64,000 nucleotides of DNA from Streptomyces pseudovenezuelae (GTDB lineage: Bacteria > Actinomycetota > Actinomycetes > Streptomycetales > Streptomycetaceae). Positions 2,264 through 40,637 of the stretch are shown here, piece by piece. The stretch is from contig NZ_JARXVH010000021.1 in assembly GCF_029892565.1 (NCBI RefSeq), positions 62,001 to 126,000 of the forward strand, written 5' to 3'. The notes beneath the pieces are model-generated. The model saw only the letters and a list, made by a program, of their open reading frames with translations, searched no databases and was not told the DNA's origin. Position 1 is the stretch's first letter, and every line of letters begins with the position of its first letter. The position numbers were made by a program, and so were the translations under genes.

Positions 2264-3109
2264 TCAGTCCTTAACCGCTCCGCCCAGCCCCGAGACCAGG
2301 CGTCGCTGCACGAGTACGAAGAACACCAGCACCGGAATCGTCATCACCGTGGAGGCCGCCATCACGCCGCCCCAGTCCGGCTCGTCCGGTTTGAAGAAGA
2401 CCAGCAGGGCCATCGGCAGGGTCGACTGGGACGTGTCGCTGATGATGAAGGACTTGGCGAACAGGAAGTCGTTCCAGGCCGAGATGAAGGAAAACACGCT
2501 CGTGGCGACGAGCCCCGGGAAGACCAGCGGGAAAAGGATCTGCCACAGGAATCGCGCGCGGCTCGCCCCGTCCATGTACGCGGCCTCCTCCAGCGCGTCC
2601 GGCACGGCTTTCACGAACCCCCGCAGCATCCAGATCGCGAAGGGCAGCGAGAAGGCGATGTGCGGCAGGATCAGCGAGCCCAGCGTGTTCAGTTGGTCGA
2701 AGTCCCGCATGAGGAAGAACAAGGGGATCGTGAGGGCTTCGACCGGCACCATCTGGGCCACCAGAAACATGATCAGCAGCGTGGTCCGGAAGCGGAACCG
2801 GAATCGCGTCACGGCGATCGCGGCGAGAAACGCGATGAGCGCCGAGGCGATCACGACACTGCCCGCGACGACAAGGCTGTTGACGAAATACCGACCGAAA
2901 TCCTGCTGCCCGAACACGCGCCGGAAGGAATCCAGCGAGGGCGCCAGCGTCCAGGGCCGCGGCTCGCTGGACTCGATCTCGCCGGCCGGTTTGAAGGCGC
3001 CGAGCACCATCCAGTAGAGGGGGAAGGCGACGACGACGGCGACGAGCAGCGCCGACAGTTCGGCCGCCAGCCGCCAGGGGCGCTGCAGTTGGGCCCGTAC
3101 GAGATTCAC
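2264..3109 (-). CDS. Sugar ABC transporter permease (MalG-like)
   Basis: This 281-residue CUT1 inner-membrane permease has about six membrane segments. The EAA loop EEAAYMDGASRARFLWQILFP contacts the ATPase. The C-terminus LVSGLGGAVKD is typical of the MalG branch. The GTG start at 3109 overlaps the preceding permease stop by 4 nt (GTGA), so translation is coupled. A longer reading upstream runs into the first permease and lacks family similarity. No ATPase is encoded in the operon. In Streptomyces one shared MsiK-type ATPase usually energises such systems. Confidence 0.92.
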   Translation of the reverse strand: MNLVRAQLQRPWRLAAELSALLVAVVVAFPLYWMVLGAFKPAGEIESSEPRPWTLAPSLDSFRRVFGQQDFGRYFVNSLVVAGSVVIASALIAFLAAIAVTRFRFRFRTTLLIMFLVAQMVPVEALTIPLFFLMRDFDQLNTLGSLILPHIAFSLPFAIWMLRGFVKAVPDALEEAAYMDGASRARFLWQILFPLVFPGLVATSVFSFISAWNDFLFAKSFIISDTSQSTLPMALLVFFKPDEPDWGGVMAASTVMTIPVLVFFVLVQRRLVSGLGGAVKD

Positions 3110-4053
3110 AGTTCCTCCCCCTGCCGGCGCAGCAGCCGCAGGTACACGAGCGTCACGGCGAGCAGCATCAGCAGCATCACGACGCCGATCGCCGAGCCGA
3201 GGCTGTACTGCGAGGACGCGAACGCCTGTTGGTAGGCGTACACGTTCAGGACGAGGTTCTGGCCCGCGATGCCGCCGCCGTTGGTCATGACGTAGATCTG
3301 GGTGAAGACCTTGAAGTCCCAGATGACGGACTGGATGGTCACCACGGTCAGGATCGGCCGCAGCATCGGCGCCAGCACGGACCGCCAGATGCGCCACTGC
3401 GAGGCGCCGTCCAGGGCGGCGGCCTCCAGCACCTCGGCCGGTACGGCGCGGATGCCGGCGTAGACCGTGACCATCACGAACGGGAAGGAGCACCACACCA
3501 CTTCGAGCAGGACCAGGAAGAACGCGCTGATCCGCCCGTACGTCCAGGAGTGGTCACCGAGTCCGAGGATCCGGTTCACCGGCCCGAAGTCCGGGTCGAA
3601 GAGGAACAGCCAGACCGTGGAGCCGGTGACGGCCGGGGTCGCCCACGCGCCGAGCGCGGCCAGCATCAGCGCCAGCCGCGGCACGGCACGCACCCGGGTC
3701 AGCAGCACGGCGAGCGCGCAGCCGACGGCGAGGGTCGACACCACGCACCCGGCCGCGAACACCACGGTCGCCAGCAGCACTTGCCAGAACTCGGGGTCCG
3801 AGAAGAGCGCCGAGTAGTTGCCGAATCCCTCGAAGGTGGTCGGTTCCCCACCACTCACCTGAGCCTGCGTGTAATGGAAGAACGAGATCAGGCCGAGCTG
3901 GTAGATCGGGTAGACGAGCAGCCCGCCGAGCACGACGAGGGCGGGGGCGAGATAGAGCCAGGGTGTCCAGCCGGCGCGGTTACGGCGGCCGGGCTTGCGG
4001 GGCGTGGTCGTGGAGATGGCCCTCCTCTCCACGACCGTGTCCTGTGCGACCAC
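3106..4053 (-). CDS. Sugar ABC transporter permease (MalF-like)
   Basis: This 315-residue CUT1 permease forms the membrane channel with the downstream MalG-like protein. A basic cytoplasmic N-terminus precedes the first membrane span (WLYLAPALVVLGGLLVYPIY, about residues 33-52). The EAA loop reads LEAAALDGASQWRIWRSVLAP. The GTG start at 4053 is 4 nt after the binding-protein stop. It is the second of four co-directional genes ending in a hexosaminidase, which suggests that GlcNAc-containing oligosaccharides are imported. Confidence 0.92.
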   Translation of the reverse strand: MVAQDTVVERRAISTTTPRKPGRRNRAGWTPWLYLAPALVVLGGLLVYPIYQLGLISFFHYTQAQVSGGEPTTFEGFGNYSALFSDPEFWQVLLATVVFAAGCVVSTLAVGCALAVLLTRVRAVPRLALMLAALGAWATPAVTGSTVWLFLFDPDFGPVNRILGLGDHSWTYGRISAFFLVLLEVVWCSFPFVMVTVYAGIRAVPAEVLEAAALDGASQWRIWRSVLAPMLRPILTVVTIQSVIWDFKVFTQIYVMTNGGGIAGQNLVLNVYAYQQAFASSQYSLGSAIGVVMLLMLLAVTLVYLRLLRRQGEEL

Positions 4054-8802: not shown

Positions 8803-10218
8803 CTACGAGGCCGCGGCCGCCGCCTTCGCCGCATCCCGGACCGCTCCGGCCACCGCGCCGGCGACCTTGTCGTTGAAGACGCTCGGGATGATGTAGTTCG
8901 GGTTCAGCTCGTCGCTGGTCACCACGTCCGCGAGGGCGGTCGCCGCGGCCAGCATCATCTCGGTGTTGACGGTGCGGGACTGGGCGTCCAGCAGGCCGCG
9001 GAAGACACCCGGGAAGACCAGCACGTTGTTGATCTGGTTCGGGAAGTCGGAGCGGCCGGTGGCCACGACGGCCGCCGTCTGGCGGGCGATCGCCGGGTCG
9101 ACCTCGGGGTCCGGGTTCGCGAGCGCGAACACGATGGCGCCCTCGGCCATGGCGGCCACGTCGTCCCCGTCCAGCACGTTCGGGGCGGAGACGCCGATGA
9201 AGACATCCGCTCCGCGAACGGCTTCCTTCAGCGTGCCCGTCAGGTTCTCGGGGTTGGTGTTGTCGGCGATCCAGCGCAGCGGCGAGTCGGCCGCGGCGTC
9301 CACCAGGTCCTCGCGGCCTGAGTGCACGACGCCGTGGATGTCGGCGACGACGGCGTTCTTCACGCCCGCGGCGATCAGCAGCTTGAGGATGGCCGTACCG
9401 GCCGCGCCCGCGCCGGACATGACGACCCGGATGTTCTCGATCTCCTTGCCCGCCACACGCAGCGCGTTCGTCAGCGCGGCCAGCACCACGATCGCCGTGC
9501 CGTGCTGGTCGTCGTGGAAGACGGGGATGTCGAGGGCCTCGCGCAGCCGGGCCTCGATCTCGAAGCAGCGCGGCGCGGAGATGTCCTCCAGGTTGATGCC
9601 GGCGAAGCCCGGGGCGATCGCCTTGACGATCGCGACGATCGCGTCGGTGTCCTGGGTGTCCAGGCACAGCGGCCAGGCGTCGATGCCGGCGAAGCGCTTG
9701 AAGAGGGCCGCCTTGCCCTCCATGACCGGCAGGGCGGCCTTGGGGCCGATGTTCCCGAGGCCGAGGACCGCGGAACCGTCCGTCACGACCGCAACGGAGT
9801 TGCGCTTGATGGTGAGGCGGCGGGCGTCCTCGGGGTTCTCGGCGATCGCCATGCACACACGGGCCACGCCCGGGGTGTAGATCATGGACAGGTCGTCACG
9901 GTTGCGGATGGGGTGCTTGGACTGCATCTCGATCTTGCCGCCGAGGTGCATCAGGAACGTACGGTCCGAGACCTTGCCGAGGGTGACGCCCTCGATGCCG
10001 CGCAGCTGCTGGACGATCTCGTCGGCGTGCGCGGTGGAGGTCGCGGCGATGGTGACGTCGATCCGGAGCGTCTCGTGCCCGGACGCGGTCACGTCGAGGC
10101 CGGTCACCGAGCCTCCGTGGGACTCCACGGCGGTGGTGATCTGGGAGACCGCCGTTCCGCTCGCGGGCACCTCCAGACGGACCGTGATCGAGTAGGAGAC
10201 GCTGGGCGCCGTTGCCAT
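8803..10218 (-). CDS. NAD(P)-dependent malic enzyme with N-terminal ACT domain
   Basis: This 471-residue oxidative decarboxylase converts malate to pyruvate and feeds C4 carbon to pyruvate and lipid precursors. Residues 1-85 form an ACT regulatory domain (SITVRLEVPASGTAV). The malic domain has YTPGVARVC (about 113-121), the metal site DDQHGTA and the Rossmann GAGAAGTAI. The C-terminal phosphotransacetylase domain of long MaeB enzymes is absent. The ATG at 10218 is used. Upstream on the same strand lies a structured RNA with a terminator (10366-10506), so this gene may be controlled by attenuation or carry an sRNA in its leader. The preference for NAD or NADP is not readable. Confidence 0.94.
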   Translation of the reverse strand: MATAPSVSYSITVRLEVPASGTAVSQITTAVESHGGSVTGLDVTASGHETLRIDVTIAATSTAHADEIVQQLRGIEGVTLGKVSDRTFLMHLGGKIEMQSKHPIRNRDDLSMIYTPGVARVCMAIAENPEDARRLTIKRNSVAVVTDGSAVLGLGNIGPKAALPVMEGKAALFKRFAGIDAWPLCLDTQDTDAIVAIVKAIAPGFAGINLEDISAPRCFEIEARLREALDIPVFHDDQHGTAIVVLAALTNALRVAGKEIENIRVVMSGAGAAGTAILKLLIAAGVKNAVVADIHGVVHSGREDLVDAAADSPLRWIADNTNPENLTGTLKEAVRGADVFIGVSAPNVLDGDDVAAMAEGAIVFALANPDPEVDPAIARQTAAVVATGRSDFPNQINNVLVFPGVFRGLLDAQSRTVNTEMMLAAATALADVVTSDELNPNYIIPSVFNDKVAGAVAGAVRDAAKAAAAAS

Positions 10219-10345: not shown

Positions 10346-10369
10346 GCGGTGCGAAAAGCGGTGCGAAAA
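10346..10369. repeat. Tandem 12-bp repeat overlapping the terminator T-run
   Basis: Two exact copies of GCGGTGCGAAAA lie at 10346-10357 and 10358-10369. On the minus strand each reads TTTTCGCACCGC, and the first T4 is the U-tract of the intrinsic terminator at 10370-10404. The second copy supplies another T4 immediately downstream. Confidence 0.8.
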
Positions 10370-10506
10370 GAGGCCCCCGTCACCTTTCGGGTGACGGAGG
10401 CCTCTCCGACGATCAATGACACCGACCCGCCATGCTCGCCTCGCGGCAAGTGGTCGCTCGTAGCGACGAAGGTTGGGCCCGGGGGCTTGGATCGGGCCGG
10501 TGTCAC
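10366..10506 (-). ncRNA. Candidate structured RNA with intrinsic terminator (sRNA or malic enzyme leader)
   Basis: Read on the minus strand, the segment folds as follows. A 13-bp closing helix pairs UGACACCGGCCCG (10505-10493) with CGGGUCGGUGUCA (10429-10417). Inside it are a hairpin GUCGCU-ACG-AGCGAC (10467-10453) and a hairpin CUUGCC-GCGA-GGCGAG (10450-10435) with a GNRA tetraloop, plus a C-rich single strand. A 15-bp terminator hairpin (10404-10370) and UUUU follow. The helix, the GNRA hairpin and the terminator each contain one G-U wobble that would be an A-C mismatch on the other strand, so the RNA is minus-sense. It starts about 85 nt after the helD stop and ends 147 nt before the malic enzyme start. 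Whether it is a free sRNA, a helD 3'UTR product or a cis leader is undecided. Confidence 0.65.
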
Positions 10507-10590
10507 ATCCAGGCTAACAAACAGATCCCGTAAGACCATTCCCGTACGGGGAGTTCACAGGAATCAGTCCGGTGGCCGGTCCCTCGGCAG

Positions 10591-13020
10591 TCAGTCCCTC
10601 AGCAGGTCGGGCACCCCTGACGCGTCCGGCTCGTCCCGCTCGGCGGAGACGATCGTGAGCTGCTGGGTCGCCCGGGTGAGGGCCACGTACAGCACCCGCA
10701 GGCCGGCCGGTGACTCGTCCGCGATCTCGGCCGGGGAGACGACGACCGTCGCGTCGTACTCCAGCCCCTTGGCCTCCAGGCTGCCCAGGGCCACCACCCG
10801 GTCGCCGAGCCCGGTGAGCCAGCGTGCGGCCTCCTCGCGCCGGTTCATCGCGACGACCACGCCGACCGTGCCGTCGACGAGGCCGAGCAGCCGGGCGGCC
10901 TCCTCACGGACGGTGTGGGCGAGGGATTCGCGGGCGCCGCCGTGTTCGTGCCTCGTGGCCACGAAACGGGGCTGTACGCCGGTGGAGCGCACCGCCCGTG
11001 GTGACTCGGAGCCGGGCATGGCCAGCGCCAGCACCTTCGCGGCGAGGTCGGCGATCTCGGAGGGGTTGCGGTAGTTGACGGTGAGCTGGAAGCGGCGGCG
11101 CGGACGGGTGCCCAGGGCCTCGTCGCGGGCCTCCGCCGCCTCGTCCACGTCGGACCAGGAGGACTGGGCCGGGTCGCCGACGACCGTCCAGGTGGCGTGC
11201 CGGCCGCGGCGGCCGACCATGCGCCACTGCATCGGGGTGACGTCCTGGGCCTCGTCGACGATGACGTGCGCGTACTCGGTGCGCTCCTGGGCGAGCCGCT
11301 CGGCCCGCTCCCACTGGGACTCCTCGCGGGTCGGCATCAGCTCCTCCAGGCCGGTCAGGTGGTCCAGCGGGTCCAGCTCGCGCCGCTTCCGCGGGCGGGC
11401 GGGGACGCCGAGGATCGACTGGAGCTCGTCGAGCATGGCGATGTCGTGCACGGAGTAGCCGTCGCGGCGCAGCGAGCGGGCCACCCGGCGGATCTCGCCG
11501 GGGTTGAGGATCCGGCGGGCCCAGCGGCCCAGGCGTCGCTCGTCGGCCATCGCGTCCAGCACGGCCCTGGGGGTCAGCTCGGGCCACCAGGCGTCCAGGA
11601 ACGCCGTGAACGCGTCCTCCGAGGCGACGTCCTCGTCGAAGGAGGAGCGCAGCTCGGCGGCGAGTTCCGGGTCGGTGTGCCGGGTGCCCGCGCCGGACCG
11701 CGCCCACAGGGCGTCCAGGAGGAGCTTGCGGGCACGCGGGCGGAGCAGGTTCACGGGGGCGGTGCCGCTGAGGGCGCTCTGGCGGATACGTTCCAGCGCG
11801 TCCGCCTCCAGCTCCAGGCGGCGCCCGAAGGCGACGACGCGCAGCCGGGAGGTCGAGACCGGCCCGCGCGGGTCGGTCTCGGCGGAGTCGCCGCCCGGGC
11901 CGTCGCCGAAGTCGTCGCCGAAGGAGAGCTGACCGGACGCGGGCCGACTGGACCCGGAGGCACCCGGCCGTCCCTGCTCCAGCGCCCCGCGGGCGGCCTT
12001 CCGCAGCACCTTGAGCATGCGGTAGGAGCCCTTGGCGCGGGCCACGGCCGGGGCGTCGTACAGCGTGGCCTCGGCGCCGTCGACCAGCGAGCCGATCGCC
12101 CGGATCGCGACCTGGCCCTCCTCGCCGAGGGAGGGCAGGACGCCCTCGGTGTAGGCGACCAGCAAAGGCGTGGGCGAGACGATGAGGATGCCGCCCGCGT
12201 ACCGGCGCCGGTCCTGGTAGAGCAGGTAGGCGGCACGGTGCAGCGCCACCGCCGTCTTCCCCGTCCCCGGGCCGCCCTCGACATACGTCACGGAGGCGGC
12301 GGGGGCGCGGATGACCAGGTCCTGCTCGGCCTGGATGGAGGCGACGATGTCCCGCATGGTGTGCCCGCGGGCCTGGCCGAGGGCGGCCATCAGGGCGCCG
12401 TCGCCGATGACGGGCAGCTCCTGGCCGTCCAGGAGGGCGGTGAGCTCGGGACGCATGAGGTCGTCCTCGACGCCGAGCACCTTGCGCCCCTTGGAGCGGA
12501 TGACCCGGCGCCGCACGACCCGTCCCGGGTCCACCGGGGTGGACCGGTAGAACGGCGCCGCCGCGGGCGCCCGCCAGTCGATGACCAGCGGGGCGTACTC
12601 GGAGTCCAGGACACCGATGCGACCGATGTGCAGGGTCTCCGCGATGTCGGCGGTGTTGTCGTCCCGTACGGCGCCTTCGGCGGGTTCCACGGCGGTGTAG
12701 GCGCCGTCGGGACCCTTCTGGCCGTCCTTGCCGAGGAGCAGGTCGATCCGGCCGAAGAGGAAGTCCTCGAACTCGTTGTTGAGCCTGTTGAGATGGATGC
12801 CGGCCCGGAAGACCTGCGCATCCCGCTCGGCGAGCGCGCCGGGCGTGCCGACCTGGCCACGCTTGGCCGCGTCGTTCATCAGAAACTCGGCCTCGTGGAT
12901 CTTCTCCTCAAGGCGCCGGTACACCCGGTCGAGATGTTTCTGTTCGACGCTGATCTCTCGATCGCGGACCGAATCCGCTGCGGCGTCGACCGCGGTTTCC
13001 TGCTGAGCCTGTGCGGCCAC
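10591..13020 (-). CDS. helD: HelD-type RNA polymerase-associated UvrD-like helicase
   Basis: This 809-residue superfamily 1 ATPase is of the actinobacterial HelD class. Such proteins bind RNA polymerase and release it from stalled or DNA-bound states, and some protect against rifamycins. The long N-terminal arm (about 1-100) is helical. Walker A is GGPGTGKTAVALH (Lys255), Walker B is VIVDEAQDVTPMQW, and motifs VVGDPAQSSW, LTVNYRNPSEI and LYVALTRATQQL complete the helicase core. A Ser/Gly/Asp-rich linker at about 370-400 interrupts the 1A region. The gene lies just after sigU-rsuA and before the structured RNA. A role in antibiotic tolerance is possible but unproven here. Confidence 0.92.
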   Translation of the reverse strand: MAAQAQQETAVDAAADSVRDREISVEQKHLDRVYRRLEEKIHEAEFLMNDAAKRGQVGTPGALAERDAQVFRAGIHLNRLNNEFEDFLFGRIDLLLGKDGQKGPDGAYTAVEPAEGAVRDDNTADIAETLHIGRIGVLDSEYAPLVIDWRAPAAAPFYRSTPVDPGRVVRRRVIRSKGRKVLGVEDDLMRPELTALLDGQELPVIGDGALMAALGQARGHTMRDIVASIQAEQDLVIRAPAASVTYVEGGPGTGKTAVALHRAAYLLYQDRRRYAGGILIVSPTPLLVAYTEGVLPSLGEEGQVAIRAIGSLVDGAEATLYDAPAVARAKGSYRMLKVLRKAARGALEQGRPGASGSSRPASGQLSFGDDFGDGPGGDSAETDPRGPVSTSRLRVVAFGRRLELEADALERIRQSALSGTAPVNLLRPRARKLLLDALWARSGAGTRHTDPELAAELRSSFDEDVASEDAFTAFLDAWWPELTPRAVLDAMADERRLGRWARRILNPGEIRRVARSLRRDGYSVHDIAMLDELQSILGVPARPRKRRELDPLDHLTGLEELMPTREESQWERAERLAQERTEYAHVIVDEAQDVTPMQWRMVGRRGRHATWTVVGDPAQSSWSDVDEAAEARDEALGTRPRRRFQLTVNYRNPSEIADLAAKVLALAMPGSESPRAVRSTGVQPRFVATRHEHGGARESLAHTVREEAARLLGLVDGTVGVVVAMNRREEAARWLTGLGDRVVALGSLEAKGLEYDATVVVSPAEIADESPAGLRVLYVALTRATQQLTIVSAERDEPDASGVPDLLRD

Positions 13021-40115: not shown

Positions 40116-40508
40116 TGGGATGAGTGGAGATGGCGGGAATCGAACCCGCGTCCACCGGTGCAGAATCAGGGCTTCTCCGTGTGCAGTTCGCTGTGATTTT
40201 CTCGGCCCCGGTGATCACGCGAACAAGTCGCCGACGGGCCCAGTCACTGTTTGATTTCCCATCGAACCCCGTGACCGGGCTCGATGGTTTAGTTCCCTAG
40301 ATTATGCCAGGGTCCGGGTCGGGAACACTCCCGGGCTGACACCCTTTTAGGGTCCTTCAGTCGCTGTTATTAGGCAGCGAGGGCGAAGGACTGGGAATCG
40401 CTCTTGGAATTGGCGATTATTGGTTGCGACATATGGTTTACGAGATCATTGCCGCTTCCTCGACACGCTTCACCTGCTTCGACAGCCGCTGTCGAAACCG
40501 ATCATCCC
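40116..40508 (-). ncRNA. ssrA: tmRNA (ssrA)
   Basis: Transfer-messenger RNA rescues stalled ribosomes with SmpB. The 5' end GGGATGATCGGTTTCGACAG (from 40508) and the 3' tRNA-like part with GGTTCGATTCCCGCC (about 40131-40145) are classic. The acceptor stem GGGATGA pairs with TCATCCC, followed by A. The CCA is not encoded. The tag reading frame at 40414-40370 encodes ANSKSDSQSFALAA and a TAA stop, with the usual Streptomyces FALAA degron. smpB lies 130 nt upstream on the same strand. A TATGAT -10-like hexamer is at 40576-40571. Confidence 0.95.
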
Positions 40509-40637
40509 CATGTTGTTTTTTCAAGCCCCCCGTGAAGAGGGCGCCACACCCGCTGTGGGGTGCAGTTGCCATCATACGTGAACAACGCACGCCGATGCCA
40601 CCGTATTCCGGGCGGACACCCGGGGGCCGCCCGGCGG

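Follow-up and report, generated by a model that had tools for sequence, protein, structure and literature searches.

The minus strand of the window (the whole stretch of DNA analysed here, 64,000 nt long) carries a helD-like gene followed by a malic enzyme gene, and between the two lies a highly structured element that is preceded by promoter-like boxes and ends in a putative intrinsic terminator (Table 1). The minimum free energy of the 141-nt interval (10506-10366, minus strand) is -83.3 kcal/mol, compared with -55.8 +/- 4.2 kcal/mol for dinucleotide shuffles (z -6.55), and none of 200 shuffles was equally stable. The parts drawn in the earlier note were recovered exactly, namely a 13-bp closing helix (10505-10493 with 10429-10417; present in both sequence and fold), a GUCGCU-ACG-AGCGAC hairpin, a CUUGCC-GCGA-GGCGAG hairpin with a GNRA loop and a 15-bp terminator stem (10404-10390 with 10384-10370) with its U-tract. 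A fourteenth pair, G-U 10506/10416, is possible in the closing helix (P1), and in the minimum free energy fold the terminator stem extends by three pairs into the U-tract. As the innermost U-A pair of the middle hairpin (H2) is not always kept in relatives, a 5-bp stem with a 5-nt loop is preferable to the earlier 6-bp drawing. The assignment to the minus strand, originally argued from G-U wobbles, is correct because the same G-U pairs recur across 70 family cores (U-G columns 60/71 in 68/70; G-U columns 10/84 in 56/70).

Table 1. Features at the helD/malic enzyme locus of the window
Feature	Position	Strand	Basis
Predicted sRNA transcript, ~141 nt, both ends predicted	10366-10506	-	Fold z -6.55
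Closing helix P1, 5' strand, pairs with 10429-10416	10493-10506	-	Class-wide covariation
Closing helix P1, 3' strand	10416-10429	-	Class-wide covariation
C-rich motif GCCCCCGGGCCCAACC, drawn as short hairpin H1	10471-10486	-	Alignment of 93
Hairpin H2, GUCGC-loop-GCGAC	10453-10467	-	98.9 % of cells paired
Hairpin H3, GNRA loop GCGA (10444-10441)	10435-10450	-	Class-wide alignment, covariation
Putative intrinsic terminator, stem-loop and U-tract 10369-10366	10366-10407	-	Fold; family terminator test
Putative -35 element GGGAAT, ECF SigR/SigH-type promoter	10538-10543	-	Conserved island, 170 aligned family sequences
Putative -10 element GTT, 19 nt after GGAAT	10516-10518	-	Nearly invariant in family alignment
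helD-like gene, upstream neighbour outside the unit	10591-13020	-	SCO2952 = HelD (PMC8655204)
Malic enzyme gene, downstream neighbour outside the unit	8803-10218	-	SCO2951 = malic enzyme (PMC7494193)

The element had not been recognised as a described riboswitch class, and this was borne out by the Rfam 15 search, which returned no family above its gathering threshold at the RNA; the only match in the window was a tmRNA elsewhere (40122-40509, minus strand). A candidate from a permissive search, ctRNA_p42d (21.5 bits against a cut-off of 50), was rejected, as it covers only the terminator. Among 20 class loci, Rfam detected tRNAs and no match to the RNA, and permissive scans of three class loci gave 15 bits or less. 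A simple sigma-70 promoter and terminator scan of the window, whose scope excludes ECF promoters and which requires at least five Ts, likewise returned no match.

DNA searches found the element in 150/150 genomes sampled from the genus, which is Streptomyces judging by its closest named relatives, and in 199/200 genomes of the family, representing 16/17 genera; the single exception, G158, was still negative with a better model. The conserved block comprises the RNA core and ~15 nt upstream, while the terminator sequence diverges. Of 144 distinct family cores, 70 were picked for diversity, and in these 97.7 % of cells pair, with 48 double-change cells against 20.1 +/- 3.3 in shuffles, although, counted by pair, double changes did not exceed chance at this sampling depth (5 pairs against 3.6 shuffled; reached in 53/500 shuffles). 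Variants of H2 in the family replace GUCGC/GCGAC with GUCCC/GGGAC or GGCGC/GCGCC. Close relatives also differ by single-base insertions or deletions at alignment columns 38 and 74-76, with the helices kept. The possibility that the element is a small protein-coding gene draws on a frame opened by GTG at 10506; however, these insertions and deletions would shift any frame, which disfavours a conserved reading frame and makes a coding function extremely unlikely.

Under strict filters, our first covariance model (R1) matched 212/394 genomes of the class, in 65/137 genera; 40 of the matching genomes belong to the window's genus, and 172 of the remaining 354 class genomes match. The other 182 returned no R1 match under these filters. 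The loci retrieved for the class, from part of the matching genomes together with five Rhodococcus plasmid loci (the duplicate locus L326 being omitted), gave 95 R1 matches on 94 loci. Alignment A4, from which the second model (R2) was built, contains 93 sequences (83 of the 95 class matches and 10 family members), twelve matches having been excluded by eye on grounds of insertions, weakness or redundancy (L310, L322, L324, L342, L345, L349, L352, L353, L355, L361, L368 and L370). R2 matches the window at 10412-10506 with 83.8 bits. With laxer filters, it also found matches in 4/19 class genomes that lacked an R1 match (G345, G348, G356 and G376), three of them only at E values of 7.6e-6 to 1.5e-4. 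Across the phylum, R2 matched 27 of 296 genomes searched (E <= 0.01); the five of these that belong to other classes are weak matches with E values of 3.8e-4 to 0.0098, which is near chance.

The compensatory changes that a covariation analysis, proposed in the earlier note, might reveal proved abundant class-wide: A4 contains 282 double-change cells, whereas shuffling gave 115.1 +/- 8.4 and sliding the pairing partners no more than 96, and 87.6 % of its cells pair against 78.3 %. In P1, double changes occur at each of the 14 pairs and 85.2 % of cells pair; its two outermost pairs are the weakest, failing in 31/81 and 35/86, and the outer pair of H3 fails in 38/93. The two outer pairs of H1 form in 59/93 and 50/92 sequences, its two core C-G pairs hold everywhere, and the CCCC and GG of the C-rich motif are invariant in the 93 aligned sequences. 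Column pair 53/66 of H2 is CG in 54, UA in 36 and GC in 3 of 93, while most of the H2 stem and the CC-G-N-GA-GGC in H3 vary little or not at all. A GNRA loop occurs in 93/95 class matches, the remaining two reading GUCA and GACA. As judged by homology and covariation, the element is thus a member of a structured RNA family that extends across much of the actinobacterial class.

Just before P1, the window contains the promoter-like sequence GGAAT-N19-GTT, an element absent from the earlier note. Using a strict rule (GGAA[T/C]-N18/19-GTT within 14 nt of P1), we detected this motif at 119/171 distinct family loci (118 GGAAT, 1 GGAAC). It was present in 119/170 family upstream regions, compared with null rates of 0.29 % in shuffled sequences and 0.35 % at random places, and at 15 of the first 40 class loci (null 0.1-0.2 %). 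Spacers of 15 to 20 were allowed in the search, and every match was 18 or 19. A looser rule (within 30 nt, GGAA[TCG], spacer 15-21) was matched before 50/95 class matches, against 65/9500 random places (0.7 %); 43 of these 50 have a spacer of exactly 18, and their boxes comprise 34 GGAAT, 15 GGAAC and 1 GGAAG. The motif occurs in families f4 (12/13, all GGAAT), f36 (6/6, all GGAAT) and f18 (8/11, all GGAAC), with further occurrences in f14 (4/6), the Rhodococcus plasmids (4/5), f26 (4/15) and f33 (2/3). The remaining 45/95 class matches lack it under the looser rule, including 6/6 in f19, 4/4 in f3 and 11/15 in f26; of these 11 f26 copies, five have sigma-70-like matches and six have neither. 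Five f26 genomes with two copies were fetched (e.g. L288/L289 and L304/L305), four of which have a box at just one of the two copies (L289, L304, L361 and L363) and the fifth at neither; in one case, the copy without a box (L288) follows a sigma-70-like match. Pairs with a single box would be consistent with two versions of the RNA, one induced by stress and the other under different control.

The published consensus for SigR is GGAAT-N18-19-GTT (PMC9205884) or GGAAT-N18-GTT (PMC2375139). In Corynebacterium, SigH is described as reading GGAAt-N18-19-GTT and SigE only GGAAC-N17-18-cGTT (PMC10012870), while the SigE sites described for S. coelicolor carry GGAAC, mostly with CGTC and in a few cases CGTT, at a spacing similar to that of the SigR type (PMC6767563). 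The SigR/SigH type therefore agrees well with members that have GGAAT, among them the copy in the window. For GGAAC boxes the assignment to SigR is weaker because SigE sites are similar in spacing and differ mainly in the -10 element, and a SigE-like factor could also act on the members that carry them. A reading in which the RNA is driven mainly by a housekeeping or other sigma factor (SigE-like for GGAAC), with the SigR match secondary, can point to these SigE sites (PMC6767563, PMC10012870), to TTGNNN-TANNNT matches before 5/15 f26 copies and one f43 copy and to the window itself, where GTT overlaps TAGCCT (10516-10511), a potential sigma-70-type -10 element, so that a housekeeping promoter could also work there. 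We nevertheless regard this reading as unlikely: the GGAA box recurs at N18/19 in 50/95 class matches, 118/119 family boxes and 12/12 f4 boxes are GGAAT, which Corynebacterium SigE is described as not reading (PMC10012870), and many f4 and type II copies (GTTGACA, GTTGAAC) have no TANNNT. From the promoter comparison, we infer SigR/SigH control, with reservations for the GGAAC members and for the copies that lack the motif (f19, f3 and others).

We placed 174 family loci, three of which are repeats, leaving 171 distinct loci, and the orientation of the malic enzyme gene was readable in 165. The element is co-oriented with this gene at 123 loci and opposite to it at 42, counts that describe a non-random sample in which inversions are shared by descent and are not independent events. 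At 34 of the 42, it is also opposite to helD, and at the other 8 helD was not found. In these 34, the RNA again occupies the gap between helD and the malic enzyme gene, facing helD and pointing away from the malic enzyme gene. The inverted loci include Kitasatospora (L041, L057) and some genomes of the window's genus (L170, L182, L199). The strict promoter motif is present at 97/123 co-oriented and 19/42 opposite loci and is therefore less regular in the inverted lineages. A strong terminator (a hairpin of <= -20 kcal/mol with a T-containing tail) follows the RNA at 143/171 distinct family loci, compared with 26/513 random places, and at 110/123 co-oriented and 30/42 opposite loci. A looser test was passed by 151/171 family loci but is weak, since 159/513 random places also pass.

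Outside the family, we surveyed the neighbours of 40 class loci using home-made gene calls (150 nearest neighbour proteins). Adjacent genes vary, with the gene immediately downstream commonly convergent or on the opposite strand, and helD was not found among the 150 proteins. Pfam scans of ten of the proteins returned a 2-oxoglutarate dehydrogenase and an AIRS-domain protein in f18, and WhiB and a carboxyl transferase in f4. At 12/40 loci, a common upstream gene family encodes a protein of ~200 aa (e.g. L288, 3215-3805, minus strand), with no Pfam match in the two members scanned. No common neighbour accounts for the RNA at the 40 loci. At four loci (L295, L314, L317 and L318), the RNA lies 1-283 nt before genes of DUF47/phosphate-transporter type on the same strand; these downstream genes cluster together, Pfam identified DUF47 and a phosphate transporter at L314, the one scanned, and three of the four loci lack a SigR-type motif. 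Because of these same-strand genes downstream, the RNA might have become a leader there.

Two readings that tie the RNA to its neighbours can be weighed against these data. The earlier note had offered an attenuator of malate metabolism, in which the junction would sense a metabolite and the terminator gate the malic enzyme gene, as well as an RNA processed from the 3'UTR of the helD message. The arrangement in the window suits both, with the element ending in a terminator on the same strand as the malic enzyme gene (as at 123/165 loci) and beginning ~85 nt past the helD stop. Both are contradicted by the inverted loci, by a promoter motif and terminator that belong to the RNA and by varying, often convergent neighbours. 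The attenuator appears very improbable given that the RNA is divergent from the malic enzyme gene at 42/165 loci and that downstream genes outside the family are varied and often on the opposite strand. Equally remote is derivation from helD, since the element carries its own promoter motif at a fixed distance in 119/170 family sequences, opposes helD at 34 loci and occurs without helD among the 150 nearest neighbour proteins of 40 class loci. The third option raised there, an sRNA, is supported, as the RNA has its own promoter motif and terminator and is independent of its neighbours. Comparison of sequences across genomes shows its independence from neighbouring genes, its conserved promoter motif and its covarying structure, and the element beside the malic enzyme gene resembles an autonomous small RNA gene, equipped with a stress-type promoter and a terminator.

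R2 found three credible copies in the window's genome, each with a GGAA-N18/19-GTT box: the one described above, a second at C2:135454-135570 (50.5 bits; L393, 1501-1617, minus strand) and a third at C13:191964-192081 (34.9 bits, E 6e-5; L395, 1501-1618, minus strand). Two more places in this genome (E 0.16 and 0.61) look like chance. The second and third copies share P1, CCCCGGGCCUCAC, a hairpin at the place of H3 and an enlarged second hairpin, an architecture that we refer to as type II; in the third, the H3 loop is altered. Of 14 type II loci, 13 have GGAA[T/C] at a spacer of exactly 18, with P1 following after 7-10 nt; the fourteenth reads GGAAG-N16-GTT. Ten of the 13 boxes are GGAAC, also the SigE type, and are less certain as SigR boxes for this reason, while three are GGAAT. 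With laxer filters, extra copies occur in 9/20 genomes of the window's genus, up to four in number. In G090, two type II-length copies of equal score sit near the two chromosome ends on opposite strands (C1:100956-101073 and 10165578-10165695), as expected if they lie within terminal inverted repeats.

Matches also extend to plasmids, with 32 Rhodococcus plasmid records detected by BLAST, one of them (NZ_CP021355) at five places. The five Rhodococcus plasmid loci that we scored with the model (e.g. L321 2990-3083 and L325 2961-3053) comprise three at 36-47 bits and two at only 27-28 bits, and four have a SigR-type promoter motif; at L324, the model match (2250-2341) is away from the BLAST place. 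L313 carries tandem copies (2888-2981 and 3070-3163) 88 nt apart, each with GGAA-N18-GTT. An unannotated 5.7-kb phage record from human faeces (MT838127.1, 72-122) gives an 80 % match over 51 nt.

Taken together, the most probable explanation, which we hold with good confidence, is a family of structured sRNAs that act in trans and are controlled by a thiol-stress sigma factor. The sigma dependence, the transcript ends and the trans action are inferred. Oxidation (disulfide stress) would free SigR in Streptomyces, or SigH in relatives, and RNA polymerase carrying this ECF sigma factor would start at GGAAT-N19-GTT just before P1. The resulting RNA of ~141 nt would adopt a closed four-way junction of P1, the C-rich H1, H2 and the GNRA hairpin H3, with transcription stopping at the intrinsic terminator. 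It would most likely act in trans, using the C-rich segment or the junction, and its targets would be mRNAs or a protein; candidate contacts for a protein or for G-rich mRNA regions are the loops and the invariant C-rich segment. The broader proposal, that this is an uncatalogued ancient RNA arm of the SigR/SigH response, extending over a large part of the class Actinomycetes, duplicated into two types, present on Rhodococcus plasmids and made under disulfide stress, seems to us somewhat better than evenly balanced. In actinobacteria, antibiotic producers and mycobacteria alike, SigR/SigH is a central redox response, and a conserved RNA under such a promoter would, if true, add a post-transcriptional arm to the thiol-stress response; the covariance model makes the RNA family findable in any actinobacterial genome.

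The earlier note also suspected that a Streptomyces sRNA might already be known at this locus, and this is probably right. The S. coelicolor sRNA scr2952 (Vockenhuber et al. 2011) has confirmed expression and is conserved in more than half of the Streptomyces tested (PMC8388888). Its name points to SCO2952, and because SCO2952 is HelD (PMC8655204) and SCO2951 is malic enzyme (PMC7494193), so that the helD/malic enzyme gap matches the SCO2952/SCO2951 gap, the element is probably scr2952 in S. coelicolor, judged only by name and position; the gap that flanks helD at its other end measures just about 70 nt in the window. Although scr2952 is stated to be in Rfam (PMC8388888), the element matches no Rfam 15 family, and the same passage makes no mention of a SigR promoter, a second type or an occurrence across the class. 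Within the literature covered, outside which most subscription papers and supplements lie, we found no description of a class-wide family or of SigR control.

Other known systems resemble the element in part. The SigR/SigH regulon of thiol-oxidative stress shares the promoter GGAAT-N18-19-GTT, whereas the passages on it that we consulted concern protein-coding genes and contain no RNA of this family. The 6C RNA is likewise a widespread actinobacterial sRNA with C-rich loops (PMC8388888), but it has two stem-loops with at least six Cs each, whereas our element has one C-rich segment and no Rfam match. The 6S-like Ms1/scr3559 is also a conserved actinobacterial non-coding RNA and, judged by its name, comes from another locus. 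For C. glutamicum, sRNAs with SigH-type promoters are described, and 44 transcription starts are reported to match the SigH promoter (PMC4046766).
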